Source of the DNA: an uncultured Verrucomicrobia subdivision 3 bacterium
Lineage (GTDB): Bacteria; Verrucomicrobiota; Verrucomicrobiia; Limisphaerales; UBA11358
DNA: 37,041 bases
NCBI GenBank assembly: GCA_903850425.1
Contig: CAINLR010000045.1
Location: forward strand, 1 to 37,041
Direction of reading: 5' to 3'
Shown here piece by piece: positions 6,305-25,583 of this stretch; positions within the stretch are counted from its first letter, which is position 1; each line of letters opens with the position of its first letter. Both the position numbers and the translations under genes were made by a program. The notes under the pieces were generated by a model. That model saw nothing but the letters and a program-made list of their open reading frames with translations, did not search any database and was not told the DNA's origin.

Positions 6305-6307
6305 GGG

Positions 6308-6395
6308 AACAACCAACACCGAACAGCCAACAACCAACATCCAGTGAAACAGGCGCGCGCGGAGTCCCACCATTAGTTGTTTGAGGTTGGTTGTT
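6308..6395. repeat. Heptamer-arm hairpin B
   Basis: The left arm 6308-6342 is five heptamers: AACAACC, AACACCG, AACAGCC, AACAACC, AACATCC. The right arm 6375-6395 (AGTTGTT, TGAGGTT, GGTTGTT) is complementary; GGAACAACCAAC (6306-6317) pairs perfectly with GTTGGTTGTTCC (6386-6397). The centre is GC-rich (GGCGCGCGCGG). It begins 3 nt after the stop of the coiled-coil gene and ends 17 nt before the moxR ATG. Confidence 0.85.
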
Positions 6396-6412
6396 CCTAT
6401 TCCAAATAATTT

Positions 6413-7447
<1,035 letters not shown>

Positions 7448-7452
7448 AGGCG

Positions 7453-7544
7453 AATTAAAAATGAAAAATGAAAAATTAAAAATCAGGGAAAGACTTTCGC
7501 GCGTTGCGTGGTGTTTTTTAATTTTTAATTTTGCATTTTTAATT
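7453..7544. repeat. Heptamer-arm hairpin C, coding for a signal-like N-terminus
   Basis: The left arm 7453-7487 reads AATTAAA, AATGAAA, AATGAAA, AATTAAA, AATCAGG. The right arm about 7510-7544 ends TTTAATT, TTTAATT, TTGCATT, TTTAATT. GAATTAAAAATG (7452-7463) pairs perfectly with CATTTTTAATTC (7534-7545). The GC-rich centre contains CGCGCGTTGCG. It starts 5 nt after the moxR stop and includes the start codon and first 28 codons of the next gene. Confidence 0.85.
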
Positions 7545-9725
7545 CCTCTTCCGGCCGCCGACCAGTTCGGTGACATTTCGGTTTCGGCGTCCGCTTTGTT
7601 CACCGGCAACACGTTTCACGGTTACGCCGAGACGCGCGTGATTTTGGAAAATCATTCGTCCAGCAAAACCCACGTCATTTCGCTGGCTTTTCCCAACAAC
7701 GCTTACGGCAATGGCAACTCCATCCGCCGCCTCGCGCGTTCCGTGACGCTCGCGCCGGGCGTGCGCGAGGTTGTTTCGCTGCTGCAACCGCCGCTGCCAG
7801 CGCAAGGCGATGGGCAAATCGCCGTGGCGGTGGACAGTCGTCACGAAGGCGAAATTCGCGTGCCGAACAACAATCACTGCAACAGTTATTCCGCTTCCGG
7901 CCGCGATGGCCACGCGACGATGCTGATCAGCCGCAGCCTGGATTTTGATGCGGTGGCCCGTTTGTTCAACGCGAGTCGCGGGGCTTTCACGGCGGCGATG
8001 GCCGTGGGCGCGCCCGATTCCTCGACCAGCCGCGGCAGTTACCAGCCCACGACCTGGATGCCCGACACGCGGCGGAGCGGCCAGACGAACTGGCTGGAAT
8101 TGGATTACGCCACGCCGCAGACCGTGGAAAAAATCATCATTCACAACACCCAGGCCATGCCGGCTTCGGGCTTTGTCGAACTGGTGGGAGCTTCCGGGAC
8201 CAACCTCGCCAAAATTCCCATGTCAGCGGTCGCCAGAAGCGCGCCAAGCTCGCGTTGGGTTTTTGAATTTTCCCTGCCCGTCACCAGCGCGCCGGTGAAA
8301 ACGGTCCGGCTCAATTTCGAAAAAACGCCGCCGTGGAGTATCGCCATTGACGCGGTGGAAATTTCCGGCCCCACCGGCAGCCAGTGGGCGAGCGAAGCCC
8401 GCGCCAGCAGCGATAACAGCGCGTCCGCCTCCTCCTACGCGCCCGGCACGGTGAATGTGGACTCCGTCGAGAGCCTGCGCGCCGAATCGCCGGTTTCGGA
8501 GTGGAGCGAAAACTGGCTCGCTTACACGCCCTTCGACGCCATCGTGCTCAACGCGGCGGATTTGGGCGTCATGCCGCCCGCCATCTTCAACGCGCTCGCC
8601 GGCTATCTCGCCGCCGGCGGAAATATTTTTCTCGCCGGCAAAAGGGAACTGCCCGCCGCCTGGCACGCCACCCAGAAAAAATCGTTTCGCGACGGCACGG
8701 AATTCAATGTGGGCTTTGGCCGTTGCATCGCGTTTCCACCGGAAAAAGCCCTGGGCGCGCTGGACCCCAAGAGCATTCAGACCTTGCGCGAAGCCCTGCG
8801 CAACACCGCGCAATACTGGCGGGCCCTGCCCCACGACAGCGAGAGCGCGAACACGGTTTTGCCCGTCGTCAAAAATCTGAAAATTCCCACGCGCGGCATT
8901 GTCGTGATGATGCTCGCGTTCATCCTCCTCATCGGGCCGGTCAACATGATTCTCCTGAACCGCCGCAACCGCCGGACTTGGATGTTGTGGACGATTCCGG
9001 CGATTTCCTTCGCCACCACGCTGCTGGTTTTTGCCTACAGCCTGCTGCGCGAAGGCATCACGCCCGACACGCGCATCACCGGGCTGACGGTGATTGACCA
9101 GGCGGCGCACCGCGCCACCACCGTTGGCGGCACGGCGTTTTATTGTCCGCTGACGCCGAGCAGCGGACTGCATTTCAATTTTGAAACCGAGGCCACGCCG
9201 CTGGTTCAAACCGGCTATGGCTCCGGCAGCTCGCGGGAAGTGGACTGGACGCAATCGCAGCATTTTTCGCGCGGCTGGCTTTCCGCGCGCGTGCCGGCGC
9301 ATTTTCATCTGCGCAAATCCGAAACCCGCCGCGAGCGGCTCGAAATTGAAAATCAAAACAGCCAGTTAAGAATCGTCAACGGCTTGGGCGCGCTCATCAA
9401 ATCACTGCGGCTCGCGGATGCGACCGGAAAAATTTATCAGGCCGACAACATCGCCGCCGGGCAAAAGAGCGCGCTGGTGCCGTCGAGTCTGCCGCCCGTG
9501 ACGCAAGGGCTCGGCGCGCAAAGCCTGCTTCGCGACCTTGGTTTTGCTGCCAATTCCGAGGTCTTGCCCGGCGATCCGGAAAAATATCTGTCGCCGAACA
9601 CCTACATCGCCGTGCTGGAAGGAAATCCGTTCATTGAAAACGCGCTCGGGTCCGCTGCCAGTCCCAAGCGCACCACCAGTGGCGCGGTGGTTTTTGGCAC
9701 GCTCGATTCCCCTGAACCCAAATGA
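7461..9725 (+). CDS. Secreted/membrane protein with discoidin-like and GATase-like regions
   Basis: A 754-aa protein. The N-terminus (residues 1-33: basic MKNEKLKIRERLSR, hydrophobic 16-30, then PLPAAD) resembles a signal peptide and is encoded almost wholly by hairpin C. Residues about 190-330 look like an F5/8-type C (discoidin) fold (NWLELDYATPQTVEKIIIHN and a later TVRLNF strand). Residues about 350-400 (FDAIVLNAADLGVMPPAIFNAL...GGNIFLAG) resemble the GATase-1-like region found in VWA-operon membrane proteins. Two transmembrane segments (about 478-498 and 508-529) are followed by about 220 further residues. The stop overlaps the next ATG (ATGA), coupling it to the ABC ATPase, so it is probably a periplasmic accessory subunit of that transporter. 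No enzymatic residues are recognised. Confidence 0.75.
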   Translation: MKNEKLKIRERLSRVAWCFLIFNFAFLIPLPAADQFGDISVSASALFTGNTFHGYAETRVILENHSSSKTHVISLAFPNNAYGNGNSIRRLARSVTLAPGVREVVSLLQPPLPAQGDGQIAVAVDSRHEGEIRVPNNNHCNSYSASGRDGHATMLISRSLDFDAVARLFNASRGAFTAAMAVGAPDSSTSRGSYQPTTWMPDTRRSGQTNWLELDYATPQTVEKIIIHNTQAMPASGFVELVGASGTNLAKIPMSAVARSAPSSRWVFEFSLPVTSAPVKTVRLNFEKTPPWSIAIDAVEISGPTGSQWASEARASSDNSASASSYAPGTVNVDSVESLRAESPVSEWSENWLAYTPFDAIVLNAADLGVMPPAIFNALAGYLAAGGNIFLAGKRELPAAWHATQKKSFRDGTEFNVGFGRCIAFPPEKALGALDPKSIQTLREALRNTAQYWRALPHDSESANTVLPVVKNLKIPTRGIVVMMLAFILLIGPVNMILLNRRNRRTWMLWTIPAISFATTLLVFAYSLLREGITPDTRITGLTVIDQAAHRATTVGGTAFYCPLTPSSGLHFNFETEATPLVQTGYGSGSSREVDWTQSQHFSRGWLSARVPAHFHLRKSETRRERLEIENQNSQLRIVNGLGALIKSLRLADATGKIYQADNIAAGQKSALVPSSLPPVTQGLGAQSLLRDLGFAANSEVLPGDPEKYLSPNTYIAVLEGNPFIENALGSAASPKRTTSGAVVFGTLDSPEPK

Positions 9726-10663
9726 AAGTCCAAGTCAAAAATCTGCGGAAGGAATTCGGCAAGACCGTGGCCGTGGACAACATTTCGTTCTCGTTCGATT
9801 CCGGCCATGTCTTTGGCTTCGTCGGCCCGAACGGTGCCGGCAAGACCACCACCATGCGGATCATTTCCACGATCGAGGAACCGACGTCCGGCGACATTTT
9901 GCTGAACGGCATTTCCATCTGTGAGGAACCGGAGCTGGCCCGGCGCGTCGTCGGCTATGTGCCGGACACGTTGCCCGCGCATCCCGACATCACGGTGCAT
10001 GAGTATCTGGATTTTTATGCGCGGGCCTATGGTTTGCGCGGGAAGAAACGCACGCAGGCGGTCGAGGCGATTGAAGAATTCACCAATGTTGCCGGCATCC
10101 GCGAGAAAAGCCTGAAGGCGCTTTCCAAAGGCATGAAGCAGCGCGTCAGTCTGGGCCGCGCGCTGGTGTATGATCCTGACGTGCTGGTTCTCGACGAACC
10201 GGCCGCCGGCCTGGACCCGCGCGCCCGTGTGGAATTGCGCGAGTTGCTCATGCTTTTGGCCGAGCGCAAAAAGGCGATTCTCATCAGCTCGCACATTCTC
10301 ACCGAGCTGACGGAAATCTGCAACGGCGTGGTCATCATCGAACGCGGAAAAATTCTGGAAACCGGCACGATCGAAGACGTGCTGAAGAAAAGCGCGCCGC
10401 GTCGCACCGTGGCCATCCGCCTGGTCGAAGGGAACAACCACCAAAATCCCCAACTGCTCAAAGAGCTATTGCAAACGCCGTTCGTCGAGAATGCGCGCGA
10501 GGTCGCCAGCGAAATTCATTTTGAACTCACCGGCGACGAGTCGGCCGCGTGCGACATTCTCGGCCAGTTGATCGCGAAAAAATTCAAGATCATCGAATTC
10601 CGCCAGACCAAGGCGAATCTGGAAGACATTTTCATGAACGTCACGAAAGGCGGGGTGCAATGA
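9722..10663 (+). CDS. ABC transporter ATP-binding protein
   Basis: A 313-aa ATPase with Walker A GPNGAGKTT (35-43), signature LSKGM (134-138), Walker B VLVLDEP (about 154-160) with AGLD D-loop, and H-loop SSHILTE (about 189-195). It belongs to the export-type (CcmA-like) ATPases that pair with ABC-2 permeases, and the next gene encodes one. It overlaps the preceding accessory gene by 4 nt. Its TGA stop at 10661-10663 falls in the first heptamer of hairpin D, so the element abuts the coding sequence with no spacer. Confidence 0.93.
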   Translation: MKVQVKNLRKEFGKTVAVDNISFSFDSGHVFGFVGPNGAGKTTTMRIISTIEEPTSGDILLNGISICEEPELARRVVGYVPDTLPAHPDITVHEYLDFYARAYGLRGKKRTQAVEAIEEFTNVAGIREKSLKALSKGMKQRVSLGRALVYDPDVLVLDEPAAGLDPRARVELRELLMLLAERKKAILISSHILTELTEICNGVVIIERGKILETGTIEDVLKKSAPRRTVAIRLVEGNNHQNPQLLKELLQTPFVENAREVASEIHFELTGDESAACDILGQLIAKKFKIIEFRQTKANLEDIFMNVTKGGVQ

Positions 10664-10750
10664 AGGATGAAGGCAGAAAGATGAAGGATGAAGCTCCGCG
10701 ATGCCAAACCGCAATCTTCGTTTCATCTTTCATCCTTCGTCCTTCATCCT
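10660..10750. repeat. Heptamer-arm hairpin D
   Basis: The left arm 10660-10694 is five heptamers (ATGAAGG, ATGAAGG, CAGAAAG, ATGAAGG, ATGAAGC). The right arm 10716-10750 is five complementary heptamers (CTTCGTT, TCATCTT, TCATCCT, TCGTCCT, TCATCCT). The 21-nt centre is CTCCGCGATGCCAAACCGCAA-like. It lies between the ABC ATPase stop and the permease ATG at 10761, 10 nt after the right arm. Confidence 0.9.
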
Positions 10751-10760
10751 TTTTCAAGTT

Positions 10761-12308: not shown

Positions 12309-12317
12309 ATGAAGAAA

Positions 12318-12416
12318 CATCCAACATCCAACACCCAACAGCCAACACCCAAAGGGTGGCCGGCGCGGGCGGATGCTGCACTGGTTGTTCGGTGTTGGTT
12401 GTTGGATGTTGGTTGT
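12318..12416. repeat. Heptamer-arm hairpin E
   Basis: The clearest member. The left arm is five heptamers at 12318-12352: CATCCAA, CATCCAA, CACCCAA, CAGCCAA, CACCCAA. The right arm is five heptamers at 12382-12416: TGGTTGT, TCGGTGT, TGGTTGT, TGGATGT, TGGTTGT. The 29-nt centre is GC-rich. It begins 9 nt after the permease stop and ends 15 nt before the DUF58 ATG at 12432. Confidence 0.92.
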
Positions 12417-12431
12417 TAGCATTTTTACCCC

Positions 12432-15055: not shown

Positions 15056-15145
15056 ACATCCAACCGAACTCTAAACATCCAATGATTGTCATTGCGACGC
15101 TCGCGGGCAATTGGATGTTCGATGTTGGAGGTTGGGTGTCGGATG
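15056..15145. repeat. Heptamer-arm hairpin F
   Basis: The right arm 15111-15145 is five heptamers (TTGGATG, TTCGATG, TTGGAGG, TTGGGTG, TCGGATG). The left arm about 15053-15084 is less regular (AACATCC, AACCGAA, then AAACATCC, AATGATTG) but pairs at both ends. The centre holds GCGACGCTCGCGGGC. It lies 9 nt after the BatA-like stop and 13 nt before the ATG at 15159. Confidence 0.82.
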
Positions 15146-25349: not shown

Positions 25350-25410
25350 GTGCTGGACGGTGGAAAAGCACGCCACTGGATTTTGCTGTCTCGTTGAAAT
25401 GGAGCGTTCG

Positions 25411-25560
25411 CCCTCACCCCGGCCCTCTCCCGCTGGGAGAGGGAGCAACGCTCCCAGTTTTCGTCCTAACCACGATGGCCAACCGCTCCCCGATTCACAC
25501 CATGAAGAAATCCACCAACGGCTGTTCCCTCTCCCAGCGGGAGAGGGTCAGGGTGAGGGG
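25411..25560. repeat. Inverted pair of CCCTCACCCC/GGGAGAGGG palindromes
   Basis: Two 33-nt units face each other (25411-25443 and 25527-25559), differing at two positions, and are separated by 83 bp. Each unit contains CCCTCTCCCGCTGGGAGAGGG, an 8-bp hairpin. The element lies between the convergent esterase (stop 25349) and ABC exporter (stop 25584) and would make strong hairpins on both transcripts, so a bidirectional terminator role is plausible. Similar CCCTCTCCC-GGGAGAGGG repeats are dispersed in many GC-rich genomes. Confidence 0.85.
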
Positions 25561-25583
25561 AAACGCACCACCACATCGGAGCG

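Follow-up and report, generated by a model that had tools for sequence, protein, structure and literature searches.

Genome context of the 7461–9725 gene

The window (the whole stretch of DNA analysed, 37,041 nt in length) is contig C45 of a Verrucomicrobia source genome of 6.9 Mb in 197 contigs. On its plus strand, a moxR-type AAA ATPase gene (6413–7447; AAA_3, E 7.8e-60) is followed by the gene for an ABC-operon accessory protein of 754 aa (7461–9725), with a signal-like N-terminus and a conserved domain from about residue 33. A profile search of this protein against Pfam and NCBIfam gave no domain over cut-off, and relatives of the gene were found in two Limisphaerales assemblies, their best segments being 68% and 61% identical. 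Two transmembrane segments (residues 480–498 and 511–529) are separated by an NRRNRR loop, which under the positive-inside rule places the N-terminal domain outside, and an export signal is therefore called for. Judged on composition and hydropathy only, the N-terminus follows the plan of a Sec signal peptide, with a basic n-region, then a hydrophobic core, and then small residues ahead of the mature domain. Export of the protein is an inference from hydropathy and topology, with neither a signal-peptide predictor nor protein data behind it.

Hairpins with arms of heptamer repeats were also detected on the plus strand at other junctions of this operon. These were AACAACC/GGTTGTT before moxR (6306–6397, core arms of 12 nt), GGATGAA/TTCATCC between the ABC ATPase and permease genes (10663–10751), AACATCC/GGATGTT between the permease and DUF58 genes (12316–12417) and a weaker core of AACATCC/GGATGTT with arms of 10 nt between the BatA-like and VWA genes (15074–15119). 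It should also be noted that at the DUF58-BatA junction (13295) an ATGA stop/start overlap was present in six genus members, with this overlap split by inserts of 108–173 nt bearing heptamer hairpins in G010, G035, G031 and G038. By eye, the filled sites resemble a duplicated ATGA/TGA, a resemblance that is confounded by the need for stop and start codons. No clear target-site duplication was found when filled and empty junctions were compared by eye, with the same confounding by stop and start codons.

A heptamer hairpin holds the only in-frame start codon before the conserved domain

The hairpin at the start of the 7461–9725 gene has arms at 7452–7482 and 7515–7545 (31 nt each, 94% complementary) around a loop of 32 nt (7483–7514), with 4 nt between the moxR stop codon and the left arm. 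Extended arms of 45 nt at 7441–7485 and 7512–7556 are 84% complementary. The predicted RNA fold (−39.7 kcal/mol, z −4.27) was equalled by one of 200 shuffles, and the hairpin reported here in the initial annotation is thus confirmed by its arms and its fold. Not mentioned there were two features, namely that the arms consist of heptamers repeated in degenerate form (lag-7 score of 0.83) and that the element is one of several hairpins at operon junctions. The left arm is made up of TAAAAAT, GAAAAAT, GAAAAAT and TAAAAA and holds the start codon (ATG, 7461). The loop, read directly from the sequence, encodes the middle of the N-terminus (about residues 8–18), while the right arm (TTTTTAA, TTTTTAA, TTTTGCA and TTTTTAA) encodes FLIFNFAFLI, the stretch forming the hydrophobic core of what resembles a signal peptide. 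As had been claimed, translation from ATG 7461 reads MKNEKLKIR on the left side and WCFLIFNFAFLI (residues 17–28) on the right. In the stretch from the moxR stop (7447) to the conserved domain there is no other in-frame ATG, GTG or TTG, which bears out the claim that the start codon is supplied by the element.

With TTTTGCA as its third heptamer, the right arm escapes the TAA that would arise in an array of TTTTTAA alone. The identical right arm recurs in another hairpin of the source genome (L102 448–528), so that the GCA variant is not confined to the present hairpin and, as it is also found in a copy outside such a gene start, need not have been selected here.

It could be argued that an AT-rich gene start of low complexity merely happens to pair and to code for a hydrophobic peptide. 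Single arms are indeed of low complexity and common: a bare 20-mer search with the arm across the whole genome matched 45 places, against 29 for the reversed pattern, and many of these matches can be explained by low complexity alone. The evidence for the hairpin rests on paired arms rather than on single-arm matches. In 795,584 bases of the source genome, 40 inverted repeats with paired arms of at least 18 nt were found, compared with one in a first-order Markov copy of the same bases. Eleven of the 40 had heptamer-like arms (lag-7 score ≥0.6), with the others being of other kinds. The presence of hairpins built from other heptamers at the same junction in relatives (see below) contradicts such a coincidence, which is considered scarcely credible. 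No Rfam match was found in the window at the gathering score, and the hairpin sits in a protein operon and not in a 23S rRNA gene.

Orthologous junctions carry hairpins of different arm classes

Some match to the protein at E 0.001 or better was found in 34 of 97 genomes, with 15 orthologues (its own included) being full-length; within the genus, the gene was found in 10 of 49 genomes. The order of eight genes around the orthologues was unchanged as far as the stretches reach, with the exception of G074, where the 5 kb preceding its copy yielded neither moxR nor the first gene. The junction between moxR and the gene was readable in 13 of the 15 orthologues, the others being G074, which lacks moxR there, and G010, whose contig starts within a TTGGATG array.

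Six of the 13 readable junctions had a heptamer-repeat hairpin, and the arms were of three types: an AAAAATT type in G000 and G038, a GAAGAAT type in G035 and an AACATTC-like type in G015, G005 and G031. A different hairpin was found in G085. No inverted repeat above a score of 8 was detected at the junction in five of the 13 (G001, G047, G090, G078 and G055), and in these an ordinary signal-peptide-like N-terminus begins close to the moxR stop (MKSVLNLFRSGISIATFALFPALVVAEDFGD; MERARMFFPGRRAVFTALLAVTTLLRAAEEFGD). In the hairpin-bearing relatives, the start and the signal-peptide-like segment are made by hairpins of other heptamers (MKKEECRNKKRVRRVLKFFFILHSTFFLSVGHAAEEFGD; METKRGHLKHSTTNIQ...MLNIECFFLLFLLLLGFSAHAAEEFGD). 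The comparison of sequences before ADQFGDIS, which had been proposed in the initial annotation, showed that conservation is seen in the domain and does not extend to the N-terminus preceding it. The orthologues thus support the suggestion that the element may have created or replaced the export signal, with export being inferred as set out above. A hairpin-free orthologue with a homologous N-terminus had been named as the case that would refute this. The nearest to it is G007, where the right arm is identical to that of the window and still encodes the homologous FLIFNFAFLI while the left arm no longer pairs; it is read as a decayed hairpin, the direction of change being unproven.

In a midpoint-rooted tree of six concatenated proteins, the arm type did not follow the branching, with at least five changes over ten genus members by hand count. 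G010 was scored from its partial array, and the count was the same without it. That different hairpins serve the same spot suggests that repeat DNA has been reused repeatedly as new export signals. An unlikely, if credible, alternative to repeated insertion is that one ancestral hairpin stayed at the junction and that only its arm sequences turn over between heptamer classes. Among the nine genus members whose junction could be read, seven possess a hairpin at this place (with the decayed one counted), and the Nostoc P6b stem is reported to have shifted class repeatedly while staying at a fixed position (PMC4476775). The left arms of G038, G035 and G000 begin at −5, 0 and +5 nt relative to the moxR stop, that is three of six lie within 5 nt of one point, but the remaining three begin at +16 (G031), +31 (G015) and +40 (G005). 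Also against such turnover are the lack of a hairpin in G047, inside the clade, and in G001, at its base, and the other operon junctions, where a genome with a clearly filled site can have relatives whose site is empty. The junction before moxR is only 10 nt in G005, G015 and G031. Repeated insertion is favoured, though not proven, by the differing start distances and by the members that have no hairpin. The assemblies are drafts, and the pattern recurs in independent genomes.

Reading frame and coding properties of the hairpins

For all seven inverted repeats at the moxR-gene junction, a start located in the left arm or ahead of it opens a frame that continues into the gene, compared with three of the 22 at six other operon junctions (Fisher p 7.7e-5). 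This test took inverted repeats with a score of at least 10, including non-heptameric ones; it omits G007, whose score does not reach 10, and G010, where the end of the contig cuts the junction. Its rows are not independent in terms of phylogeny, with G005 and G015 being sisters. The difference bears on the possibility that the hairpin is mainly an element of RNA control or processing, either an RNase III site or a start-sequestering stem tied to moxR translation, with its coding capacity a by-product. The start codon does lie within the paired left arm, and the accessible portion of one article describes RNase III cleavage of the intervening-sequence stems that border S23p ORFs in 23S rRNA (PMC4990558). 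Against this possibility, the frame is kept open at this junction far more often than elsewhere. Furthermore, five of the 13 orthologues show no inverted repeat above a score of 8 at the junction, and G007 keeps the right-arm peptide without pairing. A primary role as an RNA element is therefore viewed as distinctly doubtful.

The initial annotation had also pointed out that a Lys-rich arm followed by a hydrophobic arm gives the n- and h-region order of a signal peptide, and this was found to generalise. Across 20 heptamer hairpins of the source genome, which gave 120 readings, the right arm exceeded the left in hydrophobicity in 100, against 3020 of 6000 control readings, although the two strands within the 120 readings are not independent. 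Since 7 and 3 are coprime, all three frames of a heptamer array give one and the same seven-residue cycle, and since the two arms are complementary, both strands of a hairpin read alike. It follows that insertion in almost any register gives a hydrophilic and then a hydrophobic segment, provided that no stop intervenes. Openness as a property of the hairpins was rejected, as only 40 of the 120 readings of whole hairpins stayed open, a smaller share than for random 90-mers of the source genome (3270 of 6000).

Other genes with hairpin-encoded N-termini

A second gene, encoding a family 53 glycosyl hydrolase (GH53; PF07745, E 1.8e-89), has a signal-like N-terminus that runs through a hairpin in three of the 14 orthologues examined (G000, G042 and G038). 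In the other 11, no inverted repeat above a score of 9 was found before the domain; seven of these have an ATG 63–96 nt before the domain and an ordinary signal-like start, and the start position is unclear in the remaining four. The N-termini of two minus-strand genes of the source genome (L077 12367–13416 and 15751–16440) were also seen to run through heptamer hairpins. Their matches to TPR and DUF4381 are weak, below or near the model cut-offs, and no orthologue comparison was made.

Heptamer arms around IVP genes

The 23S rRNA intervening-sequence protein (IVP, or S23p; PF05635/TIGR02436) is a four-helix-bundle protein. Its function is given as unknown in the part of PMC4990558 that could be consulted, and PF05635 is likened to the Avd protein of diversity-generating retroelements in an article available in part (PMC10053308). 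Matches to PF05635 were found at nine places in the source genome, eight of them over cut-off. One of these genes (C106:35468–35779; TIGR02436, E 3.6e-26) is flanked by AAAAATT arms, the left of which contains its ATG, and at the next junction of the same operon, one gene away, there is an AAAAATT hairpin without an ORF.

The flanks of IVP loci were searched for an inverted repeat with a score of at least 12 between two stretches of 170 nt. In a first set, consisting of all nine loci of the source genome and the best locus of each of 29 relatives, 23 of the 38 loci were bracketed in this way, compared with 4 of 228 swapped flanks and 1 of 400 random positions. In a second set of 40 more loci, picked by the analyst from the listed matches, 36 were bracketed, with 15 of 160 and 7 of 160 for swapped flanks. 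Together this amounts to 59 of 78 loci, the other 19 having no inverted repeat at the score 12 threshold. Phylum-wide, 20 of 29 loci were bracketed, against 5 of 232 swapped flanks. Only four of the nine matches of the source genome reach a score of 12; at a score of 10 seven of the nine pass, but so do 41 of 400 random positions. The arms mostly peak at lag 7, with the heptamer varying widely among loci. AAAGCGG is common to the IVP loci L159, L161 and L162, and some bracketing arms are best at 4 or 8 bases (L150, L151, L156, L269 and L273). An association of IVP subfamily with arm polarity (A-rich left arm) was not supported (14/22 vs 22/37), and an IVP ATG inside the left arm as a general rule was rejected (only 17 of 59). 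Several IVP genes contain in-frame stops, as if decaying (G012:C24:27448–27747 and genes on C66, C105, C13 and C12 of G052).

The presence of IVP elements is variable. At a liv-operon junction, an IVP gene was found in three of the 26 orthologues examined (G000 and G026 by motif and G005 by gene positions) and a hairpin of another type in G042 and G035, with no inverted repeat of score ≥12 ending within 15 nt of the gene in the other 21. It could not be shown that the window hairpin descends from the liv-operon IVP element through an internal deletion, with the loops being unlike by eye.

The window hairpin has terminal inverted repeats of heptamers like those flanking many IVP genes, a criterion introduced by the present analysis, and it shares its AAAAATT arm class with the IVP-bearing copy C106:35468–35779. 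Given the heptamer bracketing of IVP genes and the variable presence of IVP elements, the window hairpin is best read as an ORF-less relative. Nothing closer is claimed, as the 32-nt loop holds no IVP gene.

An assignment to ordinary REP or MITE elements, moved by a standard transposase and unrelated to IVP genes, was also considered. The present elements are, like REP/RAYT palindromes and MITEs, short dispersed palindromes at the junctions between genes, and the source genome has three Y1 transposase (Y1_Tnp) hits, whose surroundings were not examined. They differ in that their arms are heptamer arrays of varying sequence with mainly the heptamer plan in common, and in that no transposase partner was identified; REPs carry a GTAG/CGTC tag according to the portion of the article to hand (PMC3733652). 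As the same heptamer plan brackets IVP genes far above control, this assignment appears very unlikely.

Proposed origin of the N-terminus

The explanation regarded as probable is that an ORF-less relative of the IVP elements was exapted at the operon junction as a start and signal peptide. The window feature would be a dispersed palindromic insertion element with degenerate heptamer-repeat arms, related to those that carry an IVP gene between like arms. On insertion at a tight stop/start junction it may have taken the place of, or split, the original 5′ end of the gene that follows, with the ATG of the left arm now presumed to start translation. The A-rich left arm would then give the basic n-region and the T-rich right arm the putative hydrophobic core. 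The hairpin, its heptamers, the start codon in the arm, the variation among orthologues and the association of heptamer arms with IVP genes are observed. The insertion event, movement, translation, export, exaptation and kinship with IVP elements are inferred, with no excised form and no mover having been demonstrated. The Y1 transposases and a reverse transcriptase (one hit) were considered as movers, and both are too few to make a case. More speculatively, and with considerable doubt, an RNA-linked selfish system around the Avd-like IVP proteins could be spreading heptamer hairpins through junctions. As the arms read alike in all frames and on both strands, a hairpin would then be a start and signal-core cassette tolerant of frame and orientation, and through this tolerance the export signals of the hosts would be continually renewed.

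If exaptation of an ORF-less relative is correct, dispersed repeat DNA has repeatedly supplied a whole functional protein segment at one site, with orthologues as controls, and it can be seen why hairpins of 7-base repeats suit the supply of such a segment. The IVP proteins also gain a clear genomic context outside rRNA, with most of the loci examined lying between inverted, mostly heptameric arms, while hairpins built on this plan but lacking an ORF occur dispersed over operon junctions. Through these two, the mobility of intervening sequences, an old question, becomes directly testable.

Comparison with known systems

In the available part of PMC4990558, the intervening sequences of 23S rRNA, some of which have an S23p ORF, are described as sporadic, with a terminal-inverted-repeat stem that is cut by RNase III and with mobility suspected. 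The present elements resemble them in their inverted-repeat stem, found in some cases around a PF05635-type ORF, in their location in a transcribed region and in their sporadic presence. They differ in lying at protein-gene junctions and in having arms of heptamer repeats of many classes; in addition, the window copy is without its own ORF and codes for part of a host protein. The Rickettsia palindromic elements are in-frame coding palindromes in host genes, as far as the accessible sections of two articles go (PMC10969869, PMC6649704). The window hairpin is comparable in being a palindromic repeat within a host gene, with an open frame and the only start inside the element, its translation being presumed. 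The same sections place the Rickettsia elements in metabolic genes and have them encode a conserved peptide, whereas the window element supplies a start codon and signal-like segment and its class differs between orthologues.

Heptamer repeats are described in two other settings, for each of which the source was seen in part. The P6b stems of the Nostoc trnL intron are 7-nt repeats of two classes with repeated shifts between them (PMC4476775), and in Beggiatoaceae TAACTGA repeats are found just before start codons (PMC4679880). The former share stems of shifting class with the present elements but occupy a single site in an intron, and the latter share the position before starts but are almost all direct and do not form hairpins. 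For neither is a tie to IVP genes or signal peptides described in the portions consulted. A search of the open-licence literature found no paper joining IVP genes to heptamer arms outside rRNA and none joining hairpin elements to signal peptides.

Other dispersed hairpins

Two further inverted repeats were noted in the window. A GC-rich one of 42 nt at 414–558 (GGAGCACGCCCGCCCCGGGCG...) is without heptamers and has near copies at L068 6161–6307, L093 10345–10491 and L101 1526–1673, and therefore represents a second dispersed hairpin family. The other, of 45 nt at 25400–25570 (CCCTCACCCCGGCCCTCTCCC...), has near copies at L063 3787–3957 and L092 12864–13022, and an ORF at 25360 reads SPRPSPAGRG across it. 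Elsewhere, dispersed hairpins at L087 3919–4002, L080 12413–12484, L092 17953–18027 and L091 18527–18673 have arms that are best at 9 or 10 bases (AACCACGAAATACACGAAA, AACCACGGATGGACACG), and copies of this kind are those present at the liv-operon junction in G042 and G035.
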